Notes under the pieces: generated by a model
Told to the model about the DNA's origin: nothing
Database searches by the model: none
What the model saw: only the letters and a program-made list of their open reading frames with translations
Part shown: positions 4,526-21,712 of the stretch, piece by piece
How the letters are laid out: each line of letters begins with the position of its first letter
Position numbering within the stretch: the stretch's first letter is position 1
From: Agromyces sp. SYSU T00194
GTDB taxonomy: Bacteria > Actinomycetota > Actinomycetes > Actinomycetales > Microbacteriaceae
Direction: 5' to 3'
Length of the DNA: 64,000 nt
Assembly (NCBI RefSeq): GCF_040496035.1
Contig: NZ_JBEPJZ010000001.1
Coordinates: 2,480,001-2,544,000, forward strand
Position numbers and translations under genes: made by a program

Positions 4526-5536
4526 ATGGGCGAGTCGCGGGTGTTCCTCGGCGAGGCCGACGGACTCCCGGAGTGGGACGTGGTCGTCGGCCGGGCGTTC
4601 CTCGCCGCCGTGGCCGCCCCGGCGGACGCGCGGACCCTCGCGGGACTCCGCCGCCTCGCCGACGATCCGGGCGCGCTGGTCGAGGAGCTCGTCGGCGTCC
4701 TGCCGTCGGTCCGGGACGCACCCGGCGGGTTCGCGCTCGTGCGCTTCGACGACGACGGACCGGGCGCGCGCCGGGTGACCGTCGTCGTGCGCGGCGACGC
4801 GGTCGTCGACCTCGACTCCCCGGGCGGCAGCCGGCGGTTCGACGACCGGGGCATCCGCCCGTTCCACCTCGCCGACTTCGACCAGGTCACGCACCTGCTC
4901 GTCCGCGGGTCCGCCGCCGGGCTCGCGGGCCCGCGCGACGGCGAACGGGTCGGCGGCCCGGGGGCGACGGCGCGCGGTCGGGTGATCGGCTGGGCCTGCG
5001 ACGCCGCGCACGCGGCGGCGGACGTCGACGACGAGACCCGTGCCGCCGGGCTCGGCGCCGCCGAGACCCAGCTGGTGCTCCCCGTGCCCGCCGCGGCGCC
5101 GGTCACGCCCGCACGCGGCGTCGACGTGCTCGCCGAGCCCGTCTCGTCCGGCGGCATCGCCGCGTTCCGCATCGGCGCCGAGGCCGTGCAGCCGCTGGAC
5201 GGCCCCGTGTACGTCGGGCGTCGGCCGAGCCTGCCGCGGATCCCGGCGGAGGACGCCCCGCGCCTGTACGCCGTGCCCGCCGCGCTGCCCGCGGTGTCGT
5301 CCACCCACGTCGAGCTCCGACCGGTCGGCCGGACCGTCGTGGTGACCGACCTGCACTCCCGCAACGGCACGACCGTGGTCGCGCCGGGCGGCGCCCGGCG
5401 GCGCCTGCGGGGTGGCGAGTCGGTCGTCGTCGGTCCCGGATCGACGCTCGACATCGGGGGTACACTCGTCGAGATCCTCGCAGCCGCGCAGGAGCGGGTC
5501 CACGAGCCCCTCGTCGACGAAGGACCAGGCACGTGA
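4526..5536 (+). CDS. FHA-domain protein, first gene of the kinase/phosphatase/MoxR locus
   Basis: 336 residues. The C-terminal third (about 215-320) is a forkhead-associated domain with VGRRPS (G231-R232), SSTHVELR and LHSRNGTT, the phosphothreonine-peptide pocket. The N-terminal 200 residues match no domain I know and contain no membrane segment, so the protein is probably a cytoplasmic reader of the nearby kinase. The ATG at 4526 follows a CAGACT -10-like hexamer by six bases, suggesting a leaderless start; a GTG one codon earlier is the alternative. Its stop overlaps the start of the phosphatase gene (GTGA). Confidence 0.85.
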   Translation: MGESRVFLGEADGLPEWDVVVGRAFLAAVAAPADARTLAGLRRLADDPGALVEELVGVLPSVRDAPGGFALVRFDDDGPGARRVTVVVRGDAVVDLDSPGGSRRFDDRGIRPFHLADFDQVTHLLVRGSAAGLAGPRDGERVGGPGATARGRVIGWACDAAHAAADVDDETRAAGLGAAETQLVLPVPAAAPVTPARGVDVLAEPVSSGGIAAFRIGAEAVQPLDGPVYVGRRPSLPRIPAEDAPRLYAVPAALPAVSSTHVELRPVGRTVVVTDLHSRNGTTVVAPGGARRRLRGGESVVVGPGSTLDIGGTLVEILAAAQERVHEPLVDEGPGT

Positions 5537-6330
5537 CGCAGATCGGACACGGGAACCCCGGCACGCGGGTGACCCTCCCCGGCGGCGCGGAGGTCACGCT
5601 CGCCTGGGCGGCGCTCACCGACACCGGGCTGCGACGCCAGGTGAACGAGGACTCGTTCGTCGCCCGGCCCCCGGTCTTCGCGGTCGCCGACGGCATGGGC
5701 GGTCACACCGCGGGCGACTTCGCGAGCGCCGCCGTCGTCACCCGCCTCGCCGAGCACGGCGGCCGCAGCACGATCGCCGGCGACGAGATCGGCAGATCGC
5801 TCTCGGCCGCGGTCGAGGACATGGTGCGCAGCATCGGCGTCACCGACGAGGGCAGCGGCACGACGGTCACCGGCGTCGGCATCGCCGTCGACGGGGATGC
5901 GCCGGCCTGGCTGGTGTTCAACATCGGCGACTCGCGGGTCTACCGCCTGCTGGACGACGAGCTCGACCAGCTGACCGTCGACCACTCGATCGTGCAGGAA
6001 CTCGTCGACGCGGGGCACATCACGCAGGAGGAGGCGGAGACGCATCCGCACAGCAACGTGATCACCCGGGCCGTCGGCTTCCACGAGACGCCGGTGCCCG
6101 ACACGCGCCTCGTGCCGCTGGTCGAGGGGATGCGGCTGCTGGTCTGCTCCGACGGGCTGACGAAGGAGCTCACCCCGTACGGGATCCGGCACTTCCTGCT
6201 CGGCTCGCACGAGCCGGAGGCCGCGGCCCGGCAGCTCATGGACGCCGCGCTCGGCAACGGGGGACGCGACAACGTCACCGTGCTGGTCGTCGACGTGCTG
6301 CGCGTGCGGTCGGCCCCCGGCGACGCCTGA
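5533..6330 (+). CDS. PP2C-family Ser/Thr protein phosphatase
   Basis: 265 residues, a minimal single-domain PPM/PP2C phosphatase (PstP/Stp1-like catalytic core without a membrane tail). Metal-binding acidic residues are present: E39-D40 in VNEDSF, D53-G54 in VADGMGGH, D207 in CSDGLT and D246-N247 in GRDNVT. It should dephosphorylate Ser/Thr residues, presumably set by the kinase encoded next. Starts with GTG inside the stop of the FHA gene, so the two are translationally coupled. Unlike the housekeeping actinobacterial phosphatase, it is not beside ftsW/pbpA-type cell-division genes here. Confidence 0.93.
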   Translation: MTQIGHGNPGTRVTLPGGAEVTLAWAALTDTGLRRQVNEDSFVARPPVFAVADGMGGHTAGDFASAAVVTRLAEHGGRSTIAGDEIGRSLSAAVEDMVRSIGVTDEGSGTTVTGVGIAVDGDAPAWLVFNIGDSRVYRLLDDELDQLTVDHSIVQELVDAGHITQEEAETHPHSNVITRAVGFHETPVPDTRLVPLVEGMRLLVCSDGLTKELTPYGIRHFLLGSHEPEAAARQLMDAALGNGGRDNVTVLVVDVLRVRSAPGDA

Positions 6331-6383
6331 GGACGGCATCCACCGGCCGCCGTCGCCGCCGTCGCGAGGGCCGGCCGCGACCC

Positions 6384-6389
6384 TAGAAT
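6384..6389 (+). promoter_or_regulatory. -10 hexamer TAGAAT upstream of the kinase gene
   Basis: A TAGAAT hexamer lies between the phosphatase stop and the kinase. An ATG at 6388 overlaps it and so cannot be the start; this supports GTG at 6454 behind a GGGAGGT ribosome site. Confidence 0.5.
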
Positions 6390-6453
6390 GGGGGCGGGTC
6401 CCACCAGAGGCACGCCGGCGACGCCGGCGGTGGCGGGCACCGAGGGAGGTCGC

Positions 6454-7794
6454 GTGACCAGGCGCCTGCCCTCGACGCCGCCGACCATTCCCGGCTTCTC
6501 GTTCGTCCGCGTGCTCGGCACGGGCGGCTTCGCCGACGTGTTCCTGTACGAGCAGCAGATGCCGCGTCGGCCCGTGGCCGTCAAGGTGCTGCTCGCGGAG
6601 GTCGTCAACGAGCACCTCCGTCGCATGTTCCGCGCCGAGGCGAACCTCATGGCCCGGCTGAGCTCGCACCCGGCCGTGCTGACCGTGCACGCGGCGAGCG
6701 TCGCCTCCGACGGCCGGCCGTACCTCGTCATGGAGTACTGCTCGTCGGCGCTCGCCCAGCGCTACCGCGCCGACCCGCTGCCCGTCGCCGATGCGCTCGA
6801 GGTGGGCATCCGCATCGGGTCCGCGGTCGAGAGCGCGCACCGGGAGGGCGTGCTGCACCGCGACATCAAGCCGTCCAACATCCTGGTGACCGCGTTCGGC
6901 CACCCGGTGCTGAGCGACTTCGGCATCGCCGCGACGCGCGGCGAGGCCGGGGACGACGACTCCGTCGGGATGTCGGTGCCCTGGTCCGCTCCCGAGGTGC
7001 TCGCCGACGAGGACAGCGGCTCCGTGGCCTCGGAGGTCTGGTCGCTCGCGGCGACCGTGTACTCGCTGCTCGCGGGCCGTTCGCCGTTCGAGGTGCCCGG
7101 CGGCGACAACTCCACGTTCGAGCTGATCCAGCGGATCGCCCGGGCGACCCCCGCGCCGATCGGCCGGCCCGACGTGCCGGCCTCGCTCGAGCAGGTGCTG
7201 CGCCGTGCGATGTCGCGCCGCCCGGCCGACCGGCCGCAGAGCGTGGACGAGCTGCTGCGCGAGCTGCAGGAGGTCGAGTCCGAGCTCGACCTGCCGCAGA
7301 CGCCGATCGAGGCCCGCATGGACGACTGGGCGCAGGCGACCGCGATCGACGTCGACGACCGGACCGCGCTGCGCGGACCGGAGCCCGGGGGCGGCACCGG
7401 GCCCGCGGCGCGCGCCGTTCGCGAACGCCGGCGCCGGCTCGCGGGCTGGACGGCGGGAGGCGTGGTGGCCGCCGCGGTCGTCGCCGGGCTCGCCGTGTTC
7501 CTCCTGACGCCACGACCGGCCCCCACCGACCTCCCGCGCGTCAGCGACGTGTCGGCCACGGTCGACGGCACGACGGTCGTGTTCACCTGGGAGGATCCGG
7601 GCGTCGACGAGGACGACGCGTACGTCGTCACGGTCGACGGGCGTCCCTCCAGCATGCAGGTGGGCACCGAGTACCGGCTCGACGCCGGCGAGCAGTCCGT
7701 GGTGTGCGCCACGGTCACCGTGACCCGTGCCGGGCGCGTGGGCGATCCCAGCGCCGAGCGGTGCGTGGAGGTCGCGGCGGAGCCGGCCCCGTGA
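6454..7794 (+). CDS. transmembrane Ser/Thr protein kinase with extracytoplasmic FN3-like domain
   Basis: 446 residues from GTG 6454. The kinase domain (about 12-280) has GTGGFADV, K44 in VAVK, H135-R136-D137 in HRDIKPSN and D155 in DFG, all that catalysis needs. One membrane helix follows (about 330-351), then an outside domain of about 95 residues resembling fibronectin type III with a Cys pair (VVCATV, ERCVEV). This replaces the PASTA repeats of PknB-type kinases, so it probably senses a protein or polysaccharide rather than muropeptides. Its stop overlaps the GTG start of the giant FN3/Ig protein, suggesting that protein as partner. Confidence 0.93.
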   Translation: MTRRLPSTPPTIPGFSFVRVLGTGGFADVFLYEQQMPRRPVAVKVLLAEVVNEHLRRMFRAEANLMARLSSHPAVLTVHAASVASDGRPYLVMEYCSSALAQRYRADPLPVADALEVGIRIGSAVESAHREGVLHRDIKPSNILVTAFGHPVLSDFGIAATRGEAGDDDSVGMSVPWSAPEVLADEDSGSVASEVWSLAATVYSLLAGRSPFEVPGGDNSTFELIQRIARATPAPIGRPDVPASLEQVLRRAMSRRPADRPQSVDELLRELQEVESELDLPQTPIEARMDDWAQATAIDVDDRTALRGPEPGGGTGPAARAVRERRRRLAGWTAGGVVAAAVVAGLAVFLLTPRPAPTDLPRVSDVSATVDGTTVVFTWEDPGVDEDDAYVVTVDGRPSSMQVGTEYRLDAGEQSVVCATVTVTRAGRVGDPSAERCVEVAAEPAP

Positions 7795-10700
7795 TCTCCG
7801 AGTGGTTCCGCGCCCACCGGTCCGGCGTGCTGACGATCGCCGCGACGACGGCGACCACGGCGCTCGTGGCGGGCGTGGCCATCGCGAGCGGCGGGTACAC
7901 CTCGCAGCGGGTGGAGCTCGGCGACGCATCCGTCTGGGTCGCCAACGGCGCGATCGAGTCGGTCGGCCGCCTCAACACCGCCGTGCGCGAGCTCGACACG
8001 GCGGTCGAGACCGGGGTCGCGGCTCCCGTGCTGGTGCAGCGGGGTGCCACCGTGCTCGTCGTCGACGCCGAGCAGGCGAACCTGGACGTGCTCGACCCCG
8101 CGACGGCGACCATCGCGGAGAGCGTGGCGATCCCGCCGGTGCGTCCGCAGGTCGCGATCGCGGGCGAGCGCATCGTCGTGGCATCCGACGGCGACGTGTG
8201 GTCGACCCCCATCGACGACTTCGGCGAGTTCGACGGGCAGCGCGATCCCGACCTGACCTTCGGCGCCGGCACCGTGACCGCCGCCGCCGCCGACGACGGC
8301 ACGATGCTCGCCTTCACGCCGTCCACCGGGCGCGTCGCCCGGTTCGACGCCGCCGCGGGAACCGCGGTCGAGCGCACCTGGCAGGTCGAGGGCGAACTCC
8401 CGGCCGACGCCGAGTGGGCGGTCACCGCCGTCGGCGGGCACTGGGCCGTGCTGGACCGCGACGCGGGGGTCCTCCACCTCGAGGGCGGCCGGGTCGACCT
8501 GGGCGACTGGGGGGTGTCGGGCGAGGCGGTGCTCCAGGAGCCCTCGGCCACGGGCGACGCGGTGCTCGTGGCGCACCGCGGCGGCCTGCTCGCGGTGCCC
8601 TTCGGGGCGGGCGACCCCGAGGTGCTCGTGGACGCCCGCGCCGGTGCCCCGGCGGCACCGGTGCGGTGGGAGGACTGCGACTACGCCGCGTGGGGGGACG
8701 CCACCGGCTGGAGTTCCTGCGGCCCCGGCGACGCCGCGCTCGCGGGCGGCGCGGCGACGGAGCTCGCCTTCCGGCACAACGGCTCCGCGCTCGTGCTCAA
8801 CGACGCGGCGACCGGACGCTCCTGGTCGGTGCGCGACGGCTGGGCGCTGGTCGACGCCTGGGACGCGCTGCTGCGCGACGAGACCGACGAGCGCGTGGTC
8901 GAGGAGAACGACCCGTCCACGCCGCCGACGCTCGAGCGCGTGCAGGTGCCGCCCGTCGCCGTCGACGACGACTTCGGGGCGAGGCCGCAGCGGACCACCA
9001 TCCTCCCGGTGCTGCTCAACGACTACGACGCCAACGGCGACGTGCTCGCGATCTCCTCGGTCGCGCCCGCGCCGGACGGGGTCGACGTCGACCTGGTGAG
9101 CAACGACCAGCAGCTCCAGGTCACCCTGCCGGCGGGCGCCACGGGAACGATCGCGCTCGACTACACGATCGACGACGGCCGCGGCGGACAGGCGACCGCG
9201 GTGGTGCGCATCACGGCGCGCGGCGACGACGAGAACCTCCCCCCGGTGCAGGCGCGCGGCGCGTCCGCGGTGGTGGAGGCGGGCGGGCGCGTCACGACCG
9301 ACGTGCTGGCCGACTGGTACGACCCCGACGGCGACCCGTTCTACCTGTCCGACGCGATCGCGGGCGCGCCCGACACGGTGACCTACGCCCCGGGCGGCGA
9401 GGTGGTCTTCACCGAGCGCGGCGGCAGCGGGGCCGAGCGCACCGTGGGACTCTCGGTCTCGGACGGGCGCGACGTCGGCTCCGGCGTCCTGTCGGTGTCG
9501 GTGCGATCGCCCGGCTCCGTGCCGCTCATGACCGAGCCCTTCGCGGTGCTCGCGTCCGCCGGCGAGGAGCTGACCATCTCGCCGCTGCGGCACGTGACCG
9601 GCGGCAGCGGCGCGATCCGCCTGACCGCCGTCCCCGCGAAGCCCGACGTGACCCTCGTGCCCGACTTCGACACCGGCACCTTCCGGTTCACGAGCGACGT
9701 CGTCGGCACCCACTACCTCGAGTACACGGCGAGCGACGGCGACCAGAGCGCCGTCGGCGTGGTCCGCGTCGACGTCGCCGCACCGCCCGACGCCGACACC
9801 ACGCCGATCACCGTGCCGCACACGGCGTTCCTCCGCGCCGGCAAGCCGAGCGACGTCGACGTGCTCGCCACCGACATCGACCCGACCGGCGGCGTGCTCG
9901 TGATCACCGGAGCCGACGACGGGTCCGACGTCGCGGGGCTGCAGGTCGAGGTCATCGAGCACCGCCTGCTGCGCGTGACCCTCAGCGGGGTGCTCGCGGA
10001 CGGCACCGGGTCGTTCGAGTACACGGTGAGCAACGGACGCGCCGAGGCGACCGGGACCGTGCGCGTCATCGAGATCCCGGCGCCGGAGCGGCCGCAGGCT
10101 CCCGTGGCGGCCGACGACGCGGTCTCCGCACGCGTCGGCGACGTCATCGACATCCCGGTGCTGGCGAACGACCGTCATCCCGACGACGAGCAGATCACGC
10201 TGGCGGCCGACCTCGTCGAGTCGCCCGCCGCAGGCGAGGGGCTCCTGTTCGCCTCCGGCGACGTGCTGCGCTACCTCGCGCCCGATCGTCCCGGCACCGT
10301 GCAGGCGGTCTACCGCGTGGAGGCGCCCGACGGCCAGTTCGCCACGGCGACCGTGACGATCACGGTCGCCGAGGCCGACCTCGAGGACAACGCCGCGCCC
10401 GTGCCCCGCGTGGTCACCTCGCGCGTGCTCGCCGGCGAGACCGTGCGCATCCGCATCCCGATGCTCGGCATCGACCCCGACGGCGACTCGGTGCAGCTCA
10501 TCGGGCAGGAGACGCCGCCGGAGCGCGGCATCGTGGTCCGCACCGGCGTCGACTGGATCGAGTACGAGGCCGGCGAGTACTCCGCAGGCACCGACGTCTT
10601 CCGCTACGCGGTCGTCGACGCGCTCGGAGCCCGGGCGACCGGCACGATCCGGGTCGGGATCGCGCCGCGGCTCGAGGGCGTGCGCGCCCCGATCGCGGTC

Positions 10701-13679
10701 CCGGACGAGGTGCGCGCCCGCCCGGGCGGCGAGATCGCGGTGCGCGTGCTCGACAACGACTCCGATCCGGACGGCGGGCCCCTCGCCATCGTCGACGTCG
10801 AGGCGGTGGACGGCTCCGCGACGGCGTCCGTCGACGGCGACCTGGTGCGCGTGGACGTGCCCGACGCCGAGGGCCGCCACAGCTTCATCTACACGATCCG
10901 CAACGACGGCGAGGCGATCGACTCGACGTTCCTCATCGTCGACGTGAGCGCCGAGGCGCCGCTGGCGCGGCCCGAGGCCGGAGACACCGTGCTGTCGCTG
11001 TCGGACATCCTCGACCGGTCGTGGGTCGACGTCGACGTGCGCGAGAACGTCTTCTTCGCCGACGGCCCCGTCGACACGCTCGACGTCTCGCTCGTGCCGG
11101 GCTGGGAGTCGGGGGCCGAGGTCCGCGCCGACGGCACGGTCCGCGTCACGCTGGCCGACGAGCGGCAGGTGATCCCGTTCCACGTCTCGCACCCGCAGGA
11201 TCCCGCCCTCGACGCCTACGCGTTCATCCGCGTGCCCGGCTTCGAGGACGCCCTGCCGCAGCTGCGCCTCGATGCGCCGCCGATCATCGTGCAGAGCGAG
11301 CAGGAGATCGAGATCGAGATCAACGACCACGTGGTCGCGGTCGGCGGGCGCGGGGTGCGGATCACCGACGAGGCGACCGTGCGCGCGTCGAACGGCGACG
11401 GCGGAGACCTCGTCATCGACGCCGACACGCTGCGCTTCCGCAGCGCCGACGAGTACTTCGGGCCCGCCTCGCTGTCGTTCGTCGTCACCGACGGTGCCTC
11501 CGCCGACGACCCCGGAGCCCGCACCGCGACGATCGTGCTCCCCATCACCGTGCTGCCGCGCGAGAACCAGCCGCCGTCGTTCACGGGCGGCCTGATCGAG
11601 TTCGAGCCCGGGCAGCAGCGCGAGATCGACCTGCTGCGACTGACGAGCTACCCCTATCCGGCCGACCTCGACGAGCTGGAGTACCGCGTCCTGCAGCCGC
11701 AGCCCGAGGGATTCGACGTCTCGCTCGACGGGACCGTGCTGACCGTCGCGACCGGCGCCGCCACGCTCGCCGGCACCCGGGCCGCCGTCACGGTCGCGGT
11801 CCAGGACGACAGCGGCGACGGCCGCTCCGGCCGCATCGAGCTGCGGGTCGTGCCGTCCACGCGACCGCTCGCCGTCCCGGCGGCCGACTCGGCCGTGGCG
11901 CGTCGCGGATCGACGACCACGGTCGACGTGCTCGCCAACGACCAGGCGACCAACCCGTTCCCGGGCGAGCCGCTGCGGGTCATCCGCGTGCGCGGCACCG
12001 ACGCCGCGAGCCTGCCGAGCGGCGTGCAGGTGGTGCCGAGCGCCGACCGGTCGTCCCTGCGCGTCACGGTCGCGGAGAACGCCGAGCCGGTCAACACGAC
12101 CGTCCAGTACCAGGTGGCGGATGCCACGGGCGACGCGAGCCGATACGCGTGGGGCCTCGTGACCGTATCGGTGCAGGACCGGCCCGAGCCGGTCGCGAAC
12201 GCACGCGCCACGGGGTTCGGCGACGGCACGATCAGCATCGGCTTCGAGCCGGGCGCGTCCAACAACTCGCCGATCATCGACTACGAGGTCACCCTCCGGG
12301 AGCCCGGCAGCGGTGAGGTCGCGGGCGTGCACGCGTGCGCGGCGACGGATTGCACGGTGCCCACGCCGGGCAACGGCCGCGCGAACCAGGTCGCGGTGGA
12401 GGTGCGCGCGCGCAACGCCATCGGCCGGTCCGGGGCGACCGGGCTGCCCGAGCCGATCTGGTCGGACGTCGTGCCCGGCGCGCCCGCCGACCTGCGGGCG
12501 GCACCGCTCGACGGCGGGCTCCGGGTCAGCTGGACGCCGGTGGTCCCCGCGGGCGGCGGCACGCCGGTGAGCCGGTACGTCGTGATCATCGCGGGGCAGA
12601 CCGGCGAGCTGTCGGCGGCGTCGATCTGCTCGGCGACCGCGTGCACGTTCGACCGGATGGGGCTGGCCAACGGGAGTTCCGTGCCCGTGGCGATCAGCCC
12701 GCGCAACGATGCGTACCCCGCGTTGTCGATCTGGCGCGAGGCATCCGTCACCGGCACGCCGTTCGGCGCGCCCGTCGCCGGGGCCGCCGACGCCGTCGGC
12801 GATGCATCGGCGGGGGCGGTGACCGTCAGCTGGAGCGCGTTCGAGCCCAACGGCGACGCGATCCTGGGCTACTTCGTGCAGCGCCTCGCCGTCGGCAGCC
12901 GCAGCCTGCCGACCGGGCCGCAGGCGTGCTCGGTGGGCTCGCCCGCCCCCGGCGCGGTCTCCGCACCGACGAACGGCGCGGGCGTCGAGGAGACGCGGGC
13001 GTTCGGGCCCGGCGTGCGCTCGACGCGCTTCGAGGGACTCTCCGACGAGAACACCGAGTACGCGTTCGTCGTGTGGGGCTACAACCGGGCCGGATGCGCG
13101 TCGAGCCCGGTGCTCGTCGTGACGCCGCGGCCCTTCGACCGCGTCATCGACGAGGTGCGCGGCGAGATGCGCTGGACCTCCGACGGGCTGGCGTGGGACT
13201 ACCGGGTCACCTCGGTGACCCCGCGGGCGAGCCGCTACGAGATCGTGGCCGTGGACGCGGCCGGCGTGCAGCTCGCGGGCAGCGTGCGCTCGTTCGACGG
13301 GGCCGGGTGGCCGCGCGAGATGCTCGGCCGGCCGTTCGGGGAGCCGGTGCGGTTCCAGGTCCGCGCCTGCGCGCCGTGGGGCAGTTGCGGGCCGTGGAGC
13401 GCGGTGCAGCCCGGCGAGCCGCAACCATCGCTCGACTTCGCGCTGCCGAGCCGGCAGTGGGATGCTGATGCCGCGCGATGGACCTGGACGAACGCGCCCG
13501 ACAACGGCGGGCTGGCCGTCTCGTTCCGCTGCGGCGTCGGGGCCGGGGCCGGAACGGCCGCGCAGTCGGAGACCAGCTGCACCGTGAGCGGCGGGGGCGG
13601 CGCCGGCGGCGGGCAGTCCGCGACCGCGTGGCTGGACGTCACCGTCGGCGGCATCACGAAACGATACGAGAGCGACTGA
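7791..13679 (+). CDS. giant membrane-anchored surface protein with about 11 Ig-like and 5 FN3-like domains
   Basis: 1,962 residues from GTG 7791 (GTGA overlap with the kinase). An N-terminal membrane anchor (about 13-33) is followed by a roughly 340-residue beta-rich region with repeated W/D/G blades, possibly a beta-propeller. Ig-like domains of the Big_9/cadherin-like type then repeat every 92-103 residues, starting near 388, 485, 578, 673, 770, 870, 967, 1059, 1159, 1262 and 1361. Several carry the acidic VLANDxDPDG signature that often binds calcium. Five FN3-like domains (from about 1465, 1562, 1658, 1778, 1877) finish the protein. No LPXTG signal, so it should stay N-terminally anchored with a very long ectodomain. 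Function unknown; adhesion, wall spanning or scaffolding fits. Confidence 0.88.
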   Translation: MISEWFRAHRSGVLTIAATTATTALVAGVAIASGGYTSQRVELGDASVWVANGAIESVGRLNTAVRELDTAVETGVAAPVLVQRGATVLVVDAEQANLDVLDPATATIAESVAIPPVRPQVAIAGERIVVASDGDVWSTPIDDFGEFDGQRDPDLTFGAGTVTAAAADDGTMLAFTPSTGRVARFDAAAGTAVERTWQVEGELPADAEWAVTAVGGHWAVLDRDAGVLHLEGGRVDLGDWGVSGEAVLQEPSATGDAVLVAHRGGLLAVPFGAGDPEVLVDARAGAPAAPVRWEDCDYAAWGDATGWSSCGPGDAALAGGAATELAFRHNGSALVLNDAATGRSWSVRDGWALVDAWDALLRDETDERVVEENDPSTPPTLERVQVPPVAVDDDFGARPQRTTILPVLLNDYDANGDVLAISSVAPAPDGVDVDLVSNDQQLQVTLPAGATGTIALDYTIDDGRGGQATAVVRITARGDDENLPPVQARGASAVVEAGGRVTTDVLADWYDPDGDPFYLSDAIAGAPDTVTYAPGGEVVFTERGGSGAERTVGLSVSDGRDVGSGVLSVSVRSPGSVPLMTEPFAVLASAGEELTISPLRHVTGGSGAIRLTAVPAKPDVTLVPDFDTGTFRFTSDVVGTHYLEYTASDGDQSAVGVVRVDVAAPPDADTTPITVPHTAFLRAGKPSDVDVLATDIDPTGGVLVITGADDGSDVAGLQVEVIEHRLLRVTLSGVLADGTGSFEYTVSNGRAEATGTVRVIEIPAPERPQAPVAADDAVSARVGDVIDIPVLANDRHPDDEQITLAADLVESPAAGEGLLFASGDVLRYLAPDRPGTVQAVYRVEAPDGQFATATVTITVAEADLEDNAAPVPRVVTSRVLAGETVRIRIPMLGIDPDGDSVQLIGQETPPERGIVVRTGVDWIEYEAGEYSAGTDVFRYAVVDALGARATGTIRVGIAPRLEGVRAPIAVPDEVRARPGGEIAVRVLDNDSDPDGGPLAIVDVEAVDGSATASVDGDLVRVDVPDAEGRHSFIYTIRNDGEAIDSTFLIVDVSAEAPLARPEAGDTVLSLSDILDRSWVDVDVRENVFFADGPVDTLDVSLVPGWESGAEVRADGTVRVTLADERQVIPFHVSHPQDPALDAYAFIRVPGFEDALPQLRLDAPPIIVQSEQEIEIEINDHVVAVGGRGVRITDEATVRASNGDGGDLVIDADTLRFRSADEYFGPASLSFVVTDGASADDPGARTATIVLPITVLPRENQPPSFTGGLIEFEPGQQREIDLLRLTSYPYPADLDELEYRVLQPQPEGFDVSLDGTVLTVATGAATLAGTRAAVTVAVQDDSGDGRSGRIELRVVPSTRPLAVPAADSAVARRGSTTTVDVLANDQATNPFPGEPLRVIRVRGTDAASLPSGVQVVPSADRSSLRVTVAENAEPVNTTVQYQVADATGDASRYAWGLVTVSVQDRPEPVANARATGFGDGTISIGFEPGASNNSPIIDYEVTLREPGSGEVAGVHACAATDCTVPTPGNGRANQVAVEVRARNAIGRSGATGLPEPIWSDVVPGAPADLRAAPLDGGLRVSWTPVVPAGGGTPVSRYVVIIAGQTGELSAASICSATACTFDRMGLANGSSVPVAISPRNDAYPALSIWREASVTGTPFGAPVAGAADAVGDASAGAVTVSWSAFEPNGDAILGYFVQRLAVGSRSLPTGPQACSVGSPAPGAVSAPTNGAGVEETRAFGPGVRSTRFEGLSDENTEYAFVVWGYNRAGCASSPVLVVTPRPFDRVIDEVRGEMRWTSDGLAWDYRVTSVTPRASRYEIVAVDAAGVQLAGSVRSFDGAGWPREMLGRPFGEPVRFQVRACAPWGSCGPWSAVQPGEPQPSLDFALPSRQWDADAARWTWTNAPDNGGLAVSFRCGVGAGAGTAAQSETSCTVSGGGGAGGGQSATAWLDVTVGGITKRYESD

Positions 13680-13698
13680 CGATGCGAGGAGCACGCAG

Positions 13699-14670: not shown

Positions 14671-15983
14671 CGGGCGCCGACGCGGGCGAGGCCGAGGTCC
14701 GCGGGCGCGACGGCGCGCTCGCGACCGCGGTCGGCGCGGCCGTCGACGCGGGGCTCGCCGCGCGCTCGGGCGTCTCGCGCGCGTGGGTCGCGGTGCGGCA
14801 GGTGGTGACGCCCACCGGGTGGTGGGTGTCGGCGGCCGCGCTGCTCGCCCTCGCGGCCGGCTACGGGCTCGGCTGGCTCGAGGCGGTCGTCGTCGGATGG
14901 GCGCTCGTGGTCGCGCTGGCCTGCGCGAGCCTGTACCTCGTGGGTCGCAGCGCGTTCGCGGTCTCGCTCGAGCTGCCGGAGCCGCGCGTGGTCGTCGGCG
15001 ATCCCGCCGAGGCGGCGGTGGTGGTCGCGAACGTCGGCCGACGGCGGGCCGTCGGCGTGGGCGTCGAGGTGCGCGTCGGCGGCGGGACGACCGCGCTCGC
15101 CGTGGCGAACCTCGCGCCGGGCTCCGCGGAGCGCCGCGTGCTGCCGCTCCCGACAGACCGGCGCGGTATCGTCGACATCGGCCCGGTGCGCACAGTGCGC
15201 GCCGACCCGATCGGACTGGTGCGCCGCGAGGTGGTGTGGGCCGAGCGCTCGCGCCTGCACGTGCATCCCCGCACGATCCCGATCCCCGCGGTGAGCACCG
15301 GGTTCGTGCGCGACCTCGAGGGGTCGCCGACGCGTGACCTGACCGCCAGCGACGTCGCCTTCCATGCGCTGCGGGAGTACGTGCCGGGCGACGACCGGCG
15401 GCACATCCACTGGCGCAGCTCGGCGAAGACCGGCACCTTCATGGTGCGCCAGTTCGAGGAGACCCGCCGCAGCCACATGATGCTCGTGCTCGACGCCGAG
15501 CCCGCGCACTACGCGGACGCCGACGAGTTCGAGCTCGCCGTGGGGGCGGTGGGCTCGCTCGGCGTGCGCGCGGTGCGCGACGCCCGCGGTGCGTCGGTCA
15601 TCGTCCCGACCTCGGGACCGGCCACCGCGCGGCCCGGCATGCGGGGACTCATGGACCTGCCGACGATCTCCAGAGACCGCCTGCTCGACGCGCTCTGCGC
15701 GGTGGCGCAGGACGAGCGGGCGCCCCGCCTCGTCGACGCGATGCGCATGACGAGCGAGGCGGTCATGGGGGTCTCCCTCGTCTTCATCGTGACGGGTTCC
15801 GCCGTCGGGATCGGGACGTTGCGGGCAGCCGCGGCGCAGGTGCGACCGGACGTGGAGGTCATCGGGGTGGTCTGCCGCACCGGTGCGATGCCCGGTACGC
15901 GCCGCGTGGGTGGCACCCAGGTGCTCACCGTCGGCGTGCTCGACGACCTGCGCGCGATCCTGGCACGGTCGGCGGCGGCATGA
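14667..15983 (+). CDS. DUF58 membrane protein
   Basis: 438 residues beginning at GTG within the moxR stop. Two hydrophobic helices lie near residues 48-95. The signature REYVPGDDRRHIHWRSSAK around residues 236-254 defines DUF58, a VWA-like fold expected on the cytoplasmic side. DUF58 proteins are the usual partners of MoxR ATPases. Ends in a four-base overlap with the transglutaminase-like gene, so the three are probably made stoichiometrically. Confidence 0.92.
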   Translation: MTGADAGEAEVRGRDGALATAVGAAVDAGLAARSGVSRAWVAVRQVVTPTGWWVSAAALLALAAGYGLGWLEAVVVGWALVVALACASLYLVGRSAFAVSLELPEPRVVVGDPAEAAVVVANVGRRRAVGVGVEVRVGGGTTALAVANLAPGSAERRVLPLPTDRRGIVDIGPVRTVRADPIGLVRREVVWAERSRLHVHPRTIPIPAVSTGFVRDLEGSPTRDLTASDVAFHALREYVPGDDRRHIHWRSSAKTGTFMVRQFEETRRSHMMLVLDAEPAHYADADEFELAVGAVGSLGVRAVRDARGASVIVPTSGPATARPGMRGLMDLPTISRDRLLDALCAVAQDERAPRLVDAMRMTSEAVMGVSLVFIVTGSAVGIGTLRAAAAQVRPDVEVIGVVCRTGAMPGTRRVGGTQVLTVGVLDDLRAILARSAAA

Positions 15984-18250
15984 GCGACGCGACGGGCGCG
16001 CGACGCAGGCTGCGGTGGTGGGCGTTCCCCCTGCTCGGCCTCGCGGTCGCGGCGGCCGCGGTGCCGTGGTGGCCGATCTACGAGGCACGGCACCTCGCCC
16101 TCGTGATCGGCGTGGGCGCCGCGGCCGGGTTCGCGGTGGCCGCCGTCGGCGCCGTGCGCGCGTGGCCCGCGTGGGGCGTGCTCCTGGGATGCCTCGGCGC
16201 CTACCTCGTGGTCGGGGTCCCGCTCGCGGTGCCGGGCGCCGCGTTCGCCGGCGTGCTGCCGACCCCCGCGGGCATCGTGGAGCTGATCGCCGGGACGGCG
16301 CTGTCGTGGTCGCGCCTGGTGACGATCGTGCTCCCGGTGGGCACCTACCAGGCGCTGCTCGTGCCCGCGCTGCTCAGCGCCCTGGCGTCGTCGGCCGGAG
16401 CGATGAGCATCGCGCTGCGCACGGCACGCCCGGCGCTCGCGGTGCTGCCTCCGATCGGGATGTTCCTCGCCGGCATCCTCCTGGGTCCCCGGTCGAGCGA
16501 CTGGGGCGTCGCGGGGGGCGTCGGCATGGTCGTCGCGACCCTCGCCTGGCTGGTCGCCGTGCGGCGCCTCCCGGGGGCCGAGGACGCCGCACGGCGTGGC
16601 GTCTCCGCGCGTCGGGTGGCGGGCGCCGTCGCGCTCGGCACCGCCGCGGTGGTGCTCGGCACGGGTGCGGCCGTGGCGATCGCGCCCGCAGCGCAGCGGG
16701 AGGTCGTGCGCGCCCATGTGCAGCAGCCGTTCGACCCGCGCGAGGCCGACAGCCCGCTCGCGGCGTTCCGCGCCTGGCAGCGTCCCGAGCGGGCCGACCA
16801 GCCGATGCTCGCCGTGCGCGGTCTCGAGCCGGGCGAGCGACTGCGGGTGGCCGTGCTCGACACGTACGACGGGATCGTCTTCACCGTCGGCGGCGCGGAC
16901 GGCGCGGAGGCATCCGGCTCCTTCACCCGCCTGCCCTACCGGCTCGAGCAGGACGCGCCGTCGGACCGCGAGCGCGACCTCGAGGTGCGCGTGCTCGGCT
17001 ACGAGGGCATCTGGGTGCCCGGCGTGGGACCGATCGAGTCGATCGCGTTCGCGGGCGACCGGGCGGAGTCGCTCGGCGCGACGTTCTTCTACAACGACGC
17101 CACCGGGACGGCGGCGATCACCGAGGGCCTGCGGCGGGGCGACGAGTACCGGGCGGTCGCGTACGCCGTCGCCGACGCCGACGACGTGGCGGCGCTCCGG
17201 CCGGGGCAGGCGGTGCTCCCCGCCACTCCCGCGCTGCCCGAGGGCCTGGACCGGCTGCTCGATCGGTACGCGCCGGCCTCCGAGTCGCCCGGGGAGCGGC
17301 TCGCGGGAGCCGTCGCGGGCCTGCGGGCCGACGGGTACGTGAGCCACGGGATCTCCCCGGACGAGCCGGCCAGCCGGTCGGGCCATTCGGCCGACCGGCT
17401 CACGCAGCTCGCGACCGACCGGCCGATGCTCGGCGACGCCGAGCAGTACGCCGTCGCCGCGGCGCTGATGGCGCGCGAGATCGGGTTCCCCGCGCGCGTG
17501 GTGATGGGCTTCGACCCGGGGGTCGACGCCCGCGCCGAGTCGGGGACGACCCAGGTCGCGGGCGCGGACATGTCGGCATGGATCGAGGTGCAGGACGCCG
17601 ACGGCACCTGGCTCGCGATCGACCCGAACCCCGCGCCGCGACCGGTCCCGGAGGCGGAGCCCGACGAGCCGACGGTGGTCTCGCGCCCGCAGTCGGTGCT
17701 GCCCCCGCCCGCGGCGCGGACGCCGGTGGAGCGTACCGTTCCCGAGCCCGAAGCCGCCGACGACGCATCCGACGACGACCCCTCGCCGTTCCTCGACGCG
17801 CTGTTCGCGATCCTGCGGGTCGGCGGGTGGGCCCTGTTGGTCCTCGCGCTGCTCGCGAGCCCGTTCCTCGCCGTGATCGGTGCGAAACTGCGTCGGCGAC
17901 GACTGCGGCGCACCGCGCCGAGCCCGGGGGAGCGGGTCGCGCAGGGGTGGAACGAGTTCGCGGACGCGGCGAGCGACTTCGGGTACGCCGTGCCGGCCGC
18001 GGCGACGTGCTCGGAGCAGGCGGCTGCCGTCGGCGGCATGCCCGCGCTGGTCGTCGCGTCGGCGGTCGAGCGGTCGCTGTTCGCGCCGGACGGACCGGAC
18101 GACGCCCAGGCGACCGCGGTGTGGAGCGCGGTCGACGCCGCGCGCGAACGGATCGCGGCCCGTCGTGGGCCGTGGCGCCGGCTGCGGGCGGCGGTGTCGC
18201 TGTCGAGCTTCTCGCGCCAGGCGCGGCTGCGACGCGAGGAGCAGGCGTGA
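15980..18250 (+). CDS. transglutaminase-like membrane protein lacking the catalytic Cys and His
   Basis: 756 residues: several N-terminal membrane helices (within about 1-230), an outside transglutaminase-core domain (about 440-560), a Pro-rich linker, one more helix (about 612-635) and a cytoplasmic DUF4129-like tail. In active relatives the core reads G-x-C-E-Q-F-A; here it is GDAEQYA, with Ala at residue 487. The usual HAWVE is SAWIE, with Ser at 532. Only the third residue, D548 in AIDPNP, is kept. It is therefore predicted not to be an active transglutaminase or protease, but a binding or structural module for MoxR-DUF58. Reading the bases directly confirms both substitutions. Confidence 0.9.
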   Translation: MSDATGARRRLRWWAFPLLGLAVAAAAVPWWPIYEARHLALVIGVGAAAGFAVAAVGAVRAWPAWGVLLGCLGAYLVVGVPLAVPGAAFAGVLPTPAGIVELIAGTALSWSRLVTIVLPVGTYQALLVPALLSALASSAGAMSIALRTARPALAVLPPIGMFLAGILLGPRSSDWGVAGGVGMVVATLAWLVAVRRLPGAEDAARRGVSARRVAGAVALGTAAVVLGTGAAVAIAPAAQREVVRAHVQQPFDPREADSPLAAFRAWQRPERADQPMLAVRGLEPGERLRVAVLDTYDGIVFTVGGADGAEASGSFTRLPYRLEQDAPSDRERDLEVRVLGYEGIWVPGVGPIESIAFAGDRAESLGATFFYNDATGTAAITEGLRRGDEYRAVAYAVADADDVAALRPGQAVLPATPALPEGLDRLLDRYAPASESPGERLAGAVAGLRADGYVSHGISPDEPASRSGHSADRLTQLATDRPMLGDAEQYAVAAALMAREIGFPARVVMGFDPGVDARAESGTTQVAGADMSAWIEVQDADGTWLAIDPNPAPRPVPEAEPDEPTVVSRPQSVLPPPAARTPVERTVPEPEAADDASDDDPSPFLDALFAILRVGGWALLVLALLASPFLAVIGAKLRRRRLRRTAPSPGERVAQGWNEFADAASDFGYAVPAAATCSEQAAAVGGMPALVVASAVERSLFAPDGPDDAQATAVWSAVDAARERIAARRGPWRRLRAAVSLSSFSRQARLRREEQA

Positions 18251-18786
18251 CGTGCCGCATCTGCGGTTCGGCGATGCCGCCCGGTGCGCTGTTCTGCGGC
18301 GGGTGCGGCAGCGCCGCCGGTGCGACCCCGGAGTCGCGGCGGCGACGGGACCACCGTGCCGACGACACGACGGCGCTCGTGCGCCTGCGGACCACGGGGG
18401 TGGTGAGCGTGCCGATCGGCGAGGCTCCCGCGCCGGCCGCGGGCGCCAGCGACGCATCCACCGTCTTCGCGCTCACGTTCGACGCCGGTGAGCTGCGTCA
18501 CGTGCGTGGCTCGGGGCTCATCGGCCGACGGCCCGTGGCCGCGGACGACGAGCGGATCGACCTCCTGGTCGCGATCGACGACCCGGAGCGTACGGTGTCG
18601 AGGACGCACCTCGAGTTCGGCGCGGTGGACGGGCAGCTCTGGGTCGCGGACCGCGGCTCGTCGAACGGCACCTGGGTGCGGCTCCCGCGCGGTGCCGGCG
18701 TGGTGCGCTGCGAGCCGGGCCGGCGCGTCTCCGTGCCGCGCGGGGGACGCGTCGACCTCGCCGGCCGCTGGTTCACGGTCGGCTGA
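18247..18786 (+). CDS. zinc-ribbon plus FHA-domain protein
   Basis: 179 residues from GTG overlapping the previous stop. The N-terminus is a four-Cys zinc ribbon (CRIC...CGGC, residues 3-20). A Thr-containing linker with DDTTALVRLR could be the kinase's phosphosite. The C-terminal FHA domain (about 85-179) carries GLIGRRP, SRTHLEF and GSSNGTW. Proteins with an N-terminal phospho-Thr motif and a C-terminal FHA domain (GarA/FhaA type) switch partners on phosphorylation; that behaviour is inferred here, not seen. It is the last gene of the overlapping run; two hairpins follow before the ATPase gene. Confidence 0.88.
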   Translation: MTCRICGSAMPPGALFCGGCGSAAGATPESRRRRDHRADDTTALVRLRTTGVVSVPIGEAPAPAAGASDASTVFALTFDAGELRHVRGSGLIGRRPVAADDERIDLLVAIDDPERTVSRTHLEFGAVDGQLWVADRGSSNGTWVRLPRGAGVVRCEPGRRVSVPRGGRVDLAGRWFTVG

Positions 18787-18806
18787 GGCGTCTCGCGCGT
18801 CCTCCA

Positions 18807-18870
18807 CATCCGCACGGCGGCAGGCGGCGGATGCGGTGTGCCGGCGCGCGGCCGGCCGATCGCCCGGCCG
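18807..18870 (+). terminator. two hairpins between the zinc-ribbon/FHA gene and the EccC-like gene
   Basis: CATCCGC (18807-18813) pairs with GCGGATG (18827-18833), and CGGCCGG (18849-18855) pairs with CCGGCCG (18864-18870). No U-tract follows, which is common in high-GC actinobacteria. A TGGACT hexamer (18875-18880) six bases before the next GTG suggests fresh, leaderless initiation. Confidence 0.4.
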
Positions 18871-18886
18871 GGGCTGGACTGGTCGG

Positions 18887-21712
18887 GTGCCCGAACCCGC
18901 GCTGCGCCTGCCCCCGGCCCCTCGTCCCGCGACGCGAACCCCGTTCCCCGTCCTCGCGACGGCGGCTCCCGTCGTCGGTTCCGTCGTGCTCTGGGCCATG
19001 ACCGGCTCGCCGTACGCGCTCGTGTTCGCGGCGCTCGGGCCGCTCGTGGCGATCGCCGGGGTGCTCGACCGGGGGCGTGGCTCCCGGCGTGCGGCCCGAC
19101 GTGCGGCCTCCGAACGCGAGCGCGAGCTCGAACGGGTGGGCCGGGAGGTCGCATCGGCGCACGAGCTGGAGCGTCGCGCGAGCTGGCGTGCGGATCCCGG
19201 GGCGCGCGCCGTGCTCGACGGCACCGCGGCGCGGCTGCGCTGGACGGCGTCGTCGTCGACCCGGGTCGTGGTGGGACCGGGCGAGTCGCCGAGCGCCCTG
19301 CGGCTCGACGGCGACGCGGACGACGACGCCGCGCGCGCGGTCGTGGTGGCGGCGGCCACGCTGCGCGACGCGCCGGTCGTCGTCGACCTCGCCGCCGGCG
19401 TCGCGCTGGTCGGCCCCCCGGTGCCGGCCCGCGCCCTCGCGCGTGCACTCGTCGTGCAGGCCTGCTTCGCGGGCGCGCCCGGGACCCTGGCCGTGGAGCT
19501 GCCCGCCACCCGGGCATGGGCGTGGGGCGCACGCCTGCCGCATCGCGCGCCCGGCGCGGCGGCGCGCCTGCGCGTGGTCGATGGGCCGACGCCCGGGGCG
19601 GCACACGGCGCGGGGGTGGCCGAACTCGTGCTCGCCGACCGGCGCGACGGACTCGACCGGCCGGTCGGCGCGGTCGTCGTGCTCGAGGGTCCCGCGCGCG
19701 CAACGGTCGTGCGGGCCGACGGCGAGGTGCACCCGTGCGTGCCGGTGCTCCTCGGCGAGCCGGAGGCGCTGGCGTGGGCGGACGCGCTCGGCGCCGCGCA
19801 TCCGCCCGACGGCGGCGCCGGTGCGCCCGTGCCCTTCGACGCCGCGCAGGTCGGCGGCGAGGGCCTCGTCGCCCGCATCGGCGCGTCGCCCGACGGGCCC
19901 GCGGAGCTCGACCTCGCCGCGGCACCGCACGCCCTCGTCGCGGGGACCACCGGCAGCGGCAAGAGCGCGTTCCTCGTCGCCTGGGCGTGCGCGCTGGCGG
20001 CGTCGCGCCCGCCGGCCGAGGTCGCGCTCGTGCTCGTCGACTTCAAGGGTGCCGCGGCGTTCGGCCCGCTCCTGGGGCTGCCCCACGTGGCGGGCGTGTT
20101 CACCGACCTGGACGAGGCCGCCGCCCGCCGCATGGTGCGCAGCCTCGGCGCCGAGGTGCTGCGCCGCGAGTCCGTGCTGCGACGTGCGGGCGCGCCCGGG
20201 GTCGAGGCGCTGCCCCCGGGCACGGAGCCGCGCCTGGTCGTGATCGTCGACGAGTACCAGGCGCTCGCGCGGCGCATCCCCGAGGTCGTCGCGGTGTTCG
20301 AGGACCTCGCCGCGCGCGGGCGCTCGCTCGGCATCCACCTCGTGCTCGGCGCGCAGCGACCGAGCGCGGCGATCGGGGAGGGCATCCGCGCCAACTGCGG
20401 GGTGCGCGTGTGCCTGCGCGTGATCGATCCGGCCGAGAGCAGGTCCATGCTCGGCACGGCGGATGCCGCCGTGCTGTCGCCGGACGCGCCCGGGCGGGGC
20501 TACCTCGATCGCGGGGACGGCCGCGTGGTCCCGTTCCGCGCGGCACTCGTCGCGCCGGGCGACATCGCGGACATCGGCAGGCGGCACGCCGGCGCCCCGG
20601 TCCCGCCCGCCCCCTGGGCGCCGCCCCTGCCGGATGCCGTGACGTCCGCCGACGTCGCCGCGGCGGGCGCCGCAGGGGCGCGGAGCGACCACGTGGTGCT
20701 CGGCCTCGTCGACGACCTCGACCGCCAGCGGCACGCGGTCGCGGCCTGGGACCCGGGCGCGGGCGCGCTGCTGGTCGTCGGTGGCGTCGCGAGCGGCCGC
20801 ACCGGAGTGCTCGCCACGGTCTCGGCGGGACTCGCGCGGCACCGGAGCGTGCGCCGCCTGTCGGCGTCGGTGCCGCGCAGCCGGGTCTGGGACGTGCTGC
20901 ACGAGCCCGGCGATCCGGGGCGCGTCGCGGTCGTGATCGACGACCTCGACGACCTGTTCGACGACTGGCCCGAGGAGTACCGCGTCGCCGGTGCGCAGGC
21001 GCTCGAGCGGCTGCTGCGCACCAGGTCGATCCCGGTGGCGGCGAGCGCCCGGCGACTCGCGGCCGCGCCCGGCGCCGCCCGCATCGCTCCGCTGTTCCGG
21101 GAGACCCTGCTGCTGCGGCAGCCGACCGCGGCGGACGTGCGGCAGGCGGGCGGCGACCCCGCACTGTGGCACGCGGACGCGCCGCCGGGCGGCGGCCAGT
21201 GGCGGGGGCTCGCGTTCCGGGCCCTGCGCCTCGACGCGGCGCCGGGCGCCGACGCGGGCGCCCCGGCCGACGGCACGATGCGCGGCCGCCACGTGCGAGC
21301 CCGGGGGCGCGTCGAGGCGCCGGGGGACGCGACGATCCCGCCCAGGGGCACCGCGTTCGCGTGCAGCGACGCACCGCGCGCCTTCGCCGAGCGGTGGCGG
21401 CGGGCGACGGGCGGCACGGCCGTGCAGCTCGACCCCGCCGACCCCCGCTCGCGCACGGTCCCGGTGGAGTGCTCCCCGCACGAGGCGCGGCTCGTCGTGG
21501 GCGACGCGGCCGCCTGGTCGGCGTGCTGGGCGCTGGTCGCGGGTCGCCGTGAGGAGGTCGTGCTGCTCGCCGACGGCGGGCACGCGAACCTGCGCGCGCT
21601 CACGGGCGAGCGTGCGCTGCCGCCACTGCTCGATCCCGGCGTCGCGGCGCTCTGGTGCAGGGAACCCGGTCGGCCGGTACGTCGCGTCGCCTGGGACGCG
21701 GACGCCCGCTGA
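18887..21712 (+). CDS. FtsK/SpoIIIE-type ATPase resembling EccC of type VII secretion
   Basis: 941 residues from GTG 18887. Two membrane helices near residues 18-60 are followed by an EccC-like layout. The first ATPase domain is intact: Walker A GTTGSGKS (K359), DFKGAAAF (D385) and Walker B VIVDEYQAL (D455-E456). A second, degenerate ATPase domain has G632-x4-G637-R-T, Arg 638 replacing the Walker lysine, and a Walker B-like VVIDDLDD near 683. EccC proteins power export of WXG100 substrates, but no eccB, eccD, eccE, mycP or WXG100 gene is visible in this window. It may be a divergent export motor or an FtsK-like pump serving the surface system upstream. Confidence 0.88.
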   Translation: MPEPALRLPPAPRPATRTPFPVLATAAPVVGSVVLWAMTGSPYALVFAALGPLVAIAGVLDRGRGSRRAARRAASERERELERVGREVASAHELERRASWRADPGARAVLDGTAARLRWTASSSTRVVVGPGESPSALRLDGDADDDAARAVVVAAATLRDAPVVVDLAAGVALVGPPVPARALARALVVQACFAGAPGTLAVELPATRAWAWGARLPHRAPGAAARLRVVDGPTPGAAHGAGVAELVLADRRDGLDRPVGAVVVLEGPARATVVRADGEVHPCVPVLLGEPEALAWADALGAAHPPDGGAGAPVPFDAAQVGGEGLVARIGASPDGPAELDLAAAPHALVAGTTGSGKSAFLVAWACALAASRPPAEVALVLVDFKGAAAFGPLLGLPHVAGVFTDLDEAAARRMVRSLGAEVLRRESVLRRAGAPGVEALPPGTEPRLVVIVDEYQALARRIPEVVAVFEDLAARGRSLGIHLVLGAQRPSAAIGEGIRANCGVRVCLRVIDPAESRSMLGTADAAVLSPDAPGRGYLDRGDGRVVPFRAALVAPGDIADIGRRHAGAPVPPAPWAPPLPDAVTSADVAAAGAAGARSDHVVLGLVDDLDRQRHAVAAWDPGAGALLVVGGVASGRTGVLATVSAGLARHRSVRRLSASVPRSRVWDVLHEPGDPGRVAVVIDDLDDLFDDWPEEYRVAGAQALERLLRTRSIPVAASARRLAAAPGAARIAPLFRETLLLRQPTAADVRQAGGDPALWHADAPPGGGQWRGLAFRALRLDAAPGADAGAPADGTMRGRHVRARGRVEAPGDATIPPRGTAFACSDAPRAFAERWRRATGGTAVQLDPADPRSRTVPVECSPHEARLVVGDAAAWSACWALVAGRREEVVLLADGGHANLRALTGERALPPLLDPGVAALWCREPGRPVRRVAWDADAR

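Follow-up and report, generated by a model that had tools for sequence, protein, structure and literature searches.

A PFNA-type operon outside the bifidobacteria, its pseudo-transglutaminase and its possible place in type VII secretion

The PFNA operon has been described in bifidobacteria as a set of five genes, pkb2, fn3, aaa-atp, duf58 and tgm, to which some species are reported to add prpC, a hypothetical gene and fha (PMC8430577, PMC6803598). In Bifidobacterium longum the operon is reported to be co-transcribed and the kinase Pkb2 to phosphorylate the MoxR ATPase (PMC8430577). It has been published as "found only in bifidobacteria" (PMC10688814), and a 2025 review notes that mycobacterial moxR loci resemble it (PMC12067865). 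A second described system of Actinomycetota, the type VII secretion system (T7SS) T7SSd of the Olsenella uli type (TsdA, TsdC, TsdD, TsdH and TsdI), is reported to include WXG100, FHA-EssC and a kinase, and an envelope-spanning role like that of EsaA has been proposed for its TsdI, a protein of 1,654 amino acids (aa) with immunoglobulin (Ig)-like domains (PMC11217815). The subject of this study is a nine-gene locus on the forward strand (positions 4526-21712) of a 64,000-nucleotide stretch of the genome of Agromyces sp. SYSU T00194, hereafter the window. From its sequence the locus is identified as a PFNA-type operon outside the bifidobacteria, and we regard as evenly balanced the proposition that it and its relatives are the module by which a type VII-like secretion apparatus is assembled, spans the envelope and is controlled by phosphorylation.

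Positions 6454-18250 of the window hold the PFNA five (kinase, giant, MoxR, DUF58 and TGM, the tgm product), and all five are homologous to their counterparts in Bifidobacterium-family loci. The comparison rests on eight giant-bearing regions (L132-L139; L, G and C numbers are our own handles for loci, genomes and contigs) of a single family (f48) with PFNA gene order, which is taken as Bifidobacteriaceae because the TGM of L137 is 88% identical to that of Bifidobacterium anseris. Identities between the window and these eight loci are 38-44% for the kinase, 51-56% for MoxR, 30-39% for DUF58 and 26-29% for the TGM (E about 1e-42 or lower), and the giant aligns at 31-32% over ∼1,210-1,290 aa in its Ig region and at 24-28% in its N-terminus. 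The window giant, at 1,962 aa with an N-terminal hydrophobic anchor and an fn3 match at residues 1467-1547, fits the ∼2,000-aa PFNA fn3 product, reported in B. longum as 1,994 aa with FN3 at 1,494-1,671 (PMC10688814). It is this gene-by-gene homology, in the same order and with PP2C and FHA genes also present, that identifies the window locus as of PFNA type; it differs in that FHA1 and PP2C stand first and that FHA2 and an EccC-like ATPase follow the TGM. The first-pass annotation, made from the window alone, knew of no described function for the combination, a view that did not survive the comparison, since the kinase, giant, MoxR, DUF58 and TGM genes, with PP2C and FHA as options, are those reported for the PFNA operon (PMC8430577, PMC6803598). 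The nine genes are as follows.

4526-5536, + strand: FHA1, a ∼230-aa N-terminal region lacking a Pfam match, then a C-terminal FHA domain at ∼5285-5458 (Pfam FHA 24.4 bits, over the cut-off)
5533-6330, + strand: PP2C Ser/Thr phosphatase with DGMGG present (Pfam PP2C_2; NCBIfam Stp1 family 196 bits, under its cut-off)
6454-7794, + strand: Ser/Thr kinase, domain at ∼6502-7239 (Pfam Pkinase 130.6 bits); one hydrophobic helix at ∼7440-7509 and a short FN3-like ectodomain, both read from the sequence
7791-13679, + strand: giant protein of 1,962 aa (Pfam Big_9, Cadherin and fn3), laid out as an N-terminal hydrophobic anchor, a possible beta-propeller at ∼7890-8930, six Big_9 Ig-like stretches and a C-terminal FN3 region
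13699-14670, + strand: MoxR AAA+ ATPase, both Walker motifs intact (A, GTGKT; B, DEINR; Pfam AAA_3 211.6 bits)
14667-15983, + strand: DUF58 protein (Pfam DUF58 44.2 bits) with N-terminal hydrophobic segments read from the sequence
15980-18250, + strand: TgpA-like membrane protein (TGM) lacking the catalytic residues (Pfam TgpA_N and Transglut_core)
18247-18786, + strand: FHA2, an FHA domain with GR, SRTH and NG residues (Pfam FHA 26.6 bits); N-terminal CxxC pairs, read as zinc-ribbon-like
18836-21712, + strand (GTG start at 18836 or 18887): EccC-like FtsK/SpoIIIE ATPase (NCBIfam EccCa 215 bits, below the cut-off)

Gene calls and Pfam or NCBIfam matches thus agree with the nine co-directional genes of the first-pass annotation, including its genes for phospho-writing, -erasing and -reading, the MoxR-DUF58 pair, the giant anchored ectodomain protein and the EccC-like ATPase. 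Its description of the first eight genes as nearly all joined by four-base overlaps was slightly strong: the overlaps are real and make up five of the eight junctions, the others being gaps of 123 (PP2C-kinase), 19 (giant-MoxR) and 49 or 100 bases (FHA2-EccC). The arrangement is not due to chance, since the same nine-gene order recurs in all five same-genus loci fetched (L041-L045), save that the small FHA2 gene was undetected in L044.

Restriction of PFNA to bifidobacteria was rejected, as a published description and not as a trait of the gene set, for a profile of the giant N-terminal domain (first 380 residues) matched 181 of 297 genomes of the window's order in 56 of 94 genera (E 1e-5). 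Across the phylum the profile matched nine of 198 sampled genomes (E 1e-10), and a relative of the window's own TGM was found in 91 of the 296 genomes examined for the class. The closest named relatives are Agromyces (TGM 79% and 78%; N-terminal 460 residues of the giant 83%). The window genome carries a second copy of the module (L057), and three same-genus genomes (G094, G117 and G213) carry three such loci each. In all, 80 regions were fetched, 78 around chosen TGM matches elsewhere plus the window genome's second TGM locus and its separate T7SS, together with 40 giant regions.

Among the 76 giant loci with a length of 19 kb or more, picked via TGM or giant matches, MoxR is present in 72, DUF58 in 73, TGM in 71, kinase in 65, FHA in 61, PP2C in 44 and EccC in 13; co-occurrence outside close relatives, the rarity of which would have told against the first-pass idea, is therefore common. 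MoxR, DUF58 and TGM are all present in 69 of the 76. Four of the seven others (L144, L162, L163 and L168) are tandem giants with the remaining genes beyond the region end, two (L052 and L151) lack a MoxR gene in the interval from giant to DUF58, and the seventh is taken up below. Gene order varies: FHA-PP2C-kinase may precede the giant, as in the window, FHA-PP2C-FHA-kinase may follow the TGM, or kinase and FHA may be divergent. Among the enzymes other than the TGM, both Walker A and B are intact in all 75 giant-locus MoxRs, HRDxKxxN is kept in 61 of 64 readable kinases and DGMGG in 44 of 45 readable PP2Cs; the altered kinases read HHD (L132 and L139) and HRG (L159). The window also has the features set for MoxR Proper AAA+ proteins, namely AAA_3, intact Walker motifs and an adjoining DUF58 gene. 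The vWA metal-site motif DxSxS was found in none of 74 giant-locus DUF58 proteins and is absent from that of the window. Two large giant open reading frames (ORFs) adjoin in seven loci (the four tandem loci above, L048, L055 and L170).

The association with type VII secretion is seen first in the immediate surroundings of the TGM. Seven genomes outside the window's genus have an EssC-like gene after the TGM (L053, L065, L069, L078, L154, L155 and L158), with a fragment at the end of L080, and N-terminal FHA matches are found on three of these TGM-adjacent EssC ORFs (L078, L080 and L158). A WXG100 gene lies directly downstream of the EssC in six of the seven (14 genomes searched); in one of the six (G298) it scored under the Pfam cut-off and was refound as two genes by a profile built for this study, and the seventh (G411) has no WXG100 downstream. 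In G349 an EccC (L161) stands upstream of the giant and no WXG100 was found on that contig. An EssC profile (A5), built from five genomes, was then compared with 60 others that have a listed giant position from the profile scans and at most 10 contigs. Strong EssCs (at least 1,000 bits, all entered) were found in 36, and in 24 of these the EssC lies on the same strand as the giant and within 25 kb of it, against 0.34 expected for an assumed 3.7-Mb genome, a 70-fold excess; one of the 24 (G239) depends on a giant position added from L080, leaving 23 without it, and because listed giant positions were used, unlisted second giants may be missed.

The linkage is also seen from the side of EssC. 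Among the best 80 of 580 named EssC loci, a choice biased by the query towards A5-like EssCs, a TGM lies upstream in 46 of the 65 with at least 5 kb of upstream sequence (kinase in 28, PP2C in 28), WXG100 lies within 4 kb downstream in 58 of the 71 with at least 1 kb of downstream sequence, and both TGM and WXG100 accompany 40 of 60; in L182 and L212 the TGM overlaps a long EssC ORF and was missed by the automatic counting rule. EssC loci with both genes come, for example, from Terrabacter, Phycicoccus, Intrasporangium, Propioniciclava, Cellulosimicrobium, Arthrobacter, Herbiconiux, Cryobacterium, Microbacterium, Actinomyces, Demequina and Dietzia, and the common order, pieced together from the locus sets, is giant-MoxR-DUF58-TGM-FHA-PP2C-FHA-kinase-EssC-WXG100. 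In four loci of other orders that have no Ig giant (L090, L094, L106 and L109) the order is WXG100-EccC-...-MoxR-DUF58-pseudoTG. The position of EssC beside WXG100 in relatives of the window locus points to WXG100-type substrates and to the giant as a part of the apparatus; the EccC-like ATPase is at most a candidate exporter of the giant. No paper tying PFNA or MoxR-DUF58-TGM to T7SS was found in a literature search that mostly left subscription papers outside, and the tie appears to be a new result. Two larger ORFs right after WXG100 genes (L174, 954-2249; L176, 3399-4763) look like possible T7SS substrates.

T7SSd is the closest known T7SS, sharing with the EssC-linked relatives of the window an EssC-type ATPase, WXG100, a kinase, FHA and a very large Ig-like envelope protein. 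In contrast to these loci, DUF58, MoxR, transglutaminase, fibronectin and PFNA have no occurrence in the main text of its description (PMC11217815), TsdI has a Sec signal and a C-terminal transmembrane segment whereas the giant has an N-terminal anchor only, and the window differs further in lacking WXG100. EccC and EssC of T7SSa and T7SSb likewise have membrane helices and FtsK/SpoIIIE ATPase domains, but in the window protein a single Walker A is intact, the second site has Arg where Lys is expected, and the FHA domain is found on another protein.

The product labelled transglutaminase is, judged by its residues, a pseudoenzyme. In the window TGM the catalytic Cys is replaced by Ala (codon 17438-17440) and the His, the register of which was set against the TgpA structure 6g49, by Ser (17573-17575). 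The Cys is present in none of 74 giant-locus TGMs and is absent from the best 120 of 864 matches of the window TGM search. It is also absent from the best 120 of 534 matches of a Bifidobacterium-type search, where Ser takes its place in all 120, while in 114 the His is replaced by Thr, Glu or Ala and in 105 the Asp by Tyr. Some of the matches in these two sets have no species name. A tree of 118 TGMs (114 from the loci, four from Bifidobacterium) has one split, with support of 1.0, between 18 Cys-bearing and 100 other sequences, and all giant-locus TGMs fall among the latter. The first-pass call of a pseudo-transglutaminase was thus right for the window and extends to the whole family, and the label "transglutaminase, presumably a cysteine protease" therefore does not fit TGMs of the PFNA type; this appears to be a new result.

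The Cys is kept in 18 of the 40 loci without an Ig giant. These 18 resemble the giant loci in the order MoxR, DUF58 and TgpA_N/Transglut_core, and differ in that the Ig giant is missing and that neither a kinase nor an EccC lies within the region fetched. Among the 40, EccC lies near seven of 22 Cys-less TGMs versus none of 18 Cys-bearing ones (p=0.011), and a kinase lies by 13 of 22 versus none of 18 (p=8e-5), both by Fisher tests that ignore relatedness and that count L078 as Cys-less without an Ig giant although the propeller part of the giant is present there. The corresponding ORF of 435 aa in L078 and L206 (Janibacter melonis), a giant cut down to its propeller part, still adjoins MoxR-DUF58-TGM-EssC-WXG100.

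The giant is of nearly constant length. Among the best 120 of 409 homologues, the named ones nearly all from Microbacteriaceae, 115 run to 1,938-2,000 aa (mean 1,962, sd 10) and the five shorter ones may be fragments; over a wider set of families, 93 locus ORFs match the giant N-terminal domain, of which 79 have 1,761-2,147 aa, two are longer and 12 are shorter, some of these 12 being truncated where the region ends. A hydrophobicity scan found an N-terminal segment in all 115 and a C-terminal one in none, and an LPxTG-like string stands near the end of two. The N-terminal domain has no Pfam match, and its profile matches the designed Cake and Pizza beta-propellers (2.8e-5 and 7.7e-5, profile-to-PDB), which is suggestive of a beta-propeller. 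In a Bifidobacterium-family locus (L132:8087-14668, - strand) giant and MoxR form one ORF with no hydrophobic segment between them, matching the giant-MoxR fusion reported for B. breve (PMC8430577). Such a fusion is puzzling for an outside giant and a cytoplasmic ATPase; cleavage, or translation from an internal start, might account for it.

The homology, linkage, active-site states, length constancy and hydrophobic anchor observed above could be joined in a single mechanism. The giant would be a rod of fixed length with its N-terminal anchor and probable beta-propeller at the membrane and its Ig/FN3 domains reaching through the thick wall, perhaps as a conduit, and the catalytically dead TgpA-like protein would act as a membrane scaffold. 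MoxR, with DUF58 as adaptor, may drive the ATP-dependent assembly or remodelling of the giant-scaffold complex. The kinase would sense the envelope through its ectodomain and phosphorylate MoxR and FHA partners, with PP2C resetting the system, and the FHA proteins may recruit the EssC/EccC ATPase in a phospho-dependent manner; the order of these events is likewise conjectural. In many relatives this ATPase would be EssC, followed by WXG100 genes, and the window would represent a derived form, in which FHA resides on a protein of its own, a single ATPase site is intact and the locus has no WXG100. More tentatively, the whole could be an undescribed phosphothreonine-controlled T7SS subtype of Actinomycetes, in which PFNA is an envelope machine with a ∼1,960-aa propeller/Ig/FN3 rod as conduit through the wall, a dead-transglutaminase membrane hub and a MoxR-DUF58 assembly motor, and the window a stripped derivative whose single-site EccC has ceased to handle WXG100 proteins and drives or gates the giant; we consider this possible and somewhat doubtful.

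If the assignment to secretion is true, an operon that has been studied in bifidobacteria for the sensing of human cytokines belongs to an envelope machine that is widespread among actinobacteria and has no tie to hosts, and the "transglutaminase" of the operon lacks that enzymatic function. Type VII secretion would gain a branch that MoxR assembles and phosphorylation controls, with a candidate for the component that spans the wall, and the question of how T7SS substrates cross a thick wall would become directly testable in soil species.

Several observations weigh against a role in secretion. The EssC is unlinked in 12 of the 36 EssC-bearing genomes (G148, G138, G485, G469, G393, G316, G394, G330, G522, G489, G430 and G404), 24 of the 60 giant-bearing genomes have no A5-type EssC, and the four Bifidobacterium-family genomes among these 24 have no same-strand EssC near the giant. 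One giant (L167, the seventh locus lacking the full trio) has no partner gene within ∼8 kb downstream. A mid-protein hydrophobic stretch occurs in 16 of the 115 giants. In the window itself the locus has no WXG100, the EccC-like protein has one Walker A and stands on its own long branch outside the PFNA-linked EssC clade (nearest grouping weak, 77%), and its AlphaFold2 (AF2) model, made with 11 distant EssCs, is weak, with a confidence (pLDDT) of 63.7, the last 159 residues lying below 50. The unlinked and missing EssCs, together with the partnerless giant, indicate that the module can exist without secretion genes, and it is therefore safest to describe it as a module for envelope assembly under phospho-control, in frequent partnership with type VII secretion. 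In the Bifidobacterium family, a PFNA giant of G360 (C2:376178-404247) lies ∼24 kb from an opposite-strand EssC, perhaps that of a T7SSd.

The same genomes without A5-type EssC and the separate branch of the window EccC favour the strongest alternative, in which the giant is a stand-alone adhesin or wall rod that the kinase, MoxR, DUF58 and pseudo-transglutaminase fold and place after Sec export, EssC/EccC and WXG100 being frequent but functionally separate neighbours and the window EccC a lineage-specific add-on; the FN3 protein of B. bifidum is reported to mediate adhesion (PMC12607495). This account retains an appreciable, though minority, probability. It is opposed by the linkage of EssC at 70 times the chance level, by the recurrence of the association in other orders, at loci with a Cys-less TGM, and by the narrow length of the giant, which is unexpected for a repeat adhesin.

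A host-immune sensor, as proposed for bifidobacteria, in which the giant binds host cytokines and the kinase senses them, is improbable for the module at large. Agromyces, Arthrobacter, Terrabacter and Cryobacterium are mainly environmental genera, and the module is present in all four; host sensing is therefore unlikely as its original or general role. The in vitro binding of TNF-alpha by a B. longum FN3 fragment and the induction of the operon, both reported (PMC8430577, PMC10688814), could reflect a secondary use in gut species.

An anti-phage or biological-conflict system of the MoxR kind is more improbable still. Kinases, FtsK-like ATPases and MoxR are known in such systems, the window MoxR scores 46 bits against Pfam bpMoxR (cut-off 27; AAA_3 is far stronger) and PADLOC matches the kinase. 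At E 1e-10, however, PADLOC matches are limited to the kinase and FtsK-type domains, with nothing on the other seven proteins, and the gene set is not described in the accessible part of the conflict-systems paper (PMC7159879); a defence system was therefore rejected. An active transglutaminase that cross-links the giant into the wall, for which the TgpA_N and Transglut_core domains speak, was rejected as highly improbable on the absence of the Cys from the giant-locus proteins and both sets of 120 matches and on the split of the tree from the 18 Cys-bearing TgpAs.

The window EccC-like protein has a helical membrane region, one intact Walker A (GTTGSGKS, ∼19943-19966) and a degenerate second ATPase site (GGVASGRT, ∼20780-20803), where SGR replaces SGK in all six same-genus rows; no third Walker A was found in it. 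A profile of the six rows matches EccC (4nh0) at 3e-89, the single protein being below NCBIfam cut-offs, and the AF2 model extends over the first ATPase domain and partly over the second. Its long branch does not support a reading of the gene as a shortened copy of a PFNA-linked EssC, and its position outside that clade suggests that it may be a separate acquisition. Neither L041-L045 nor the initial 30 kb of the window yielded a WXG100 gene; those of the window genome are at C1:75376 and C1:290299. The genome has a separate T7SS (L060, C1:286000-302000), with an EssC bearing an FHA domain and a WXG100 gene but no giant or TGM found in that interval, and this EssC groups with the PFNA-linked EssCs.

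Rfam and tRNA scans of the window gave no matches, a promoter scan gave none, and a terminator scan gave one against 1.1 expected. The kinase GTG start at 6454 is preceded by GGGAGG. The locus is flanked by unrelated metabolic genes, with an aldehyde dehydrogenase upstream and, on the opposite strand, an L-asparaginase and a class-III aminotransferase downstream.

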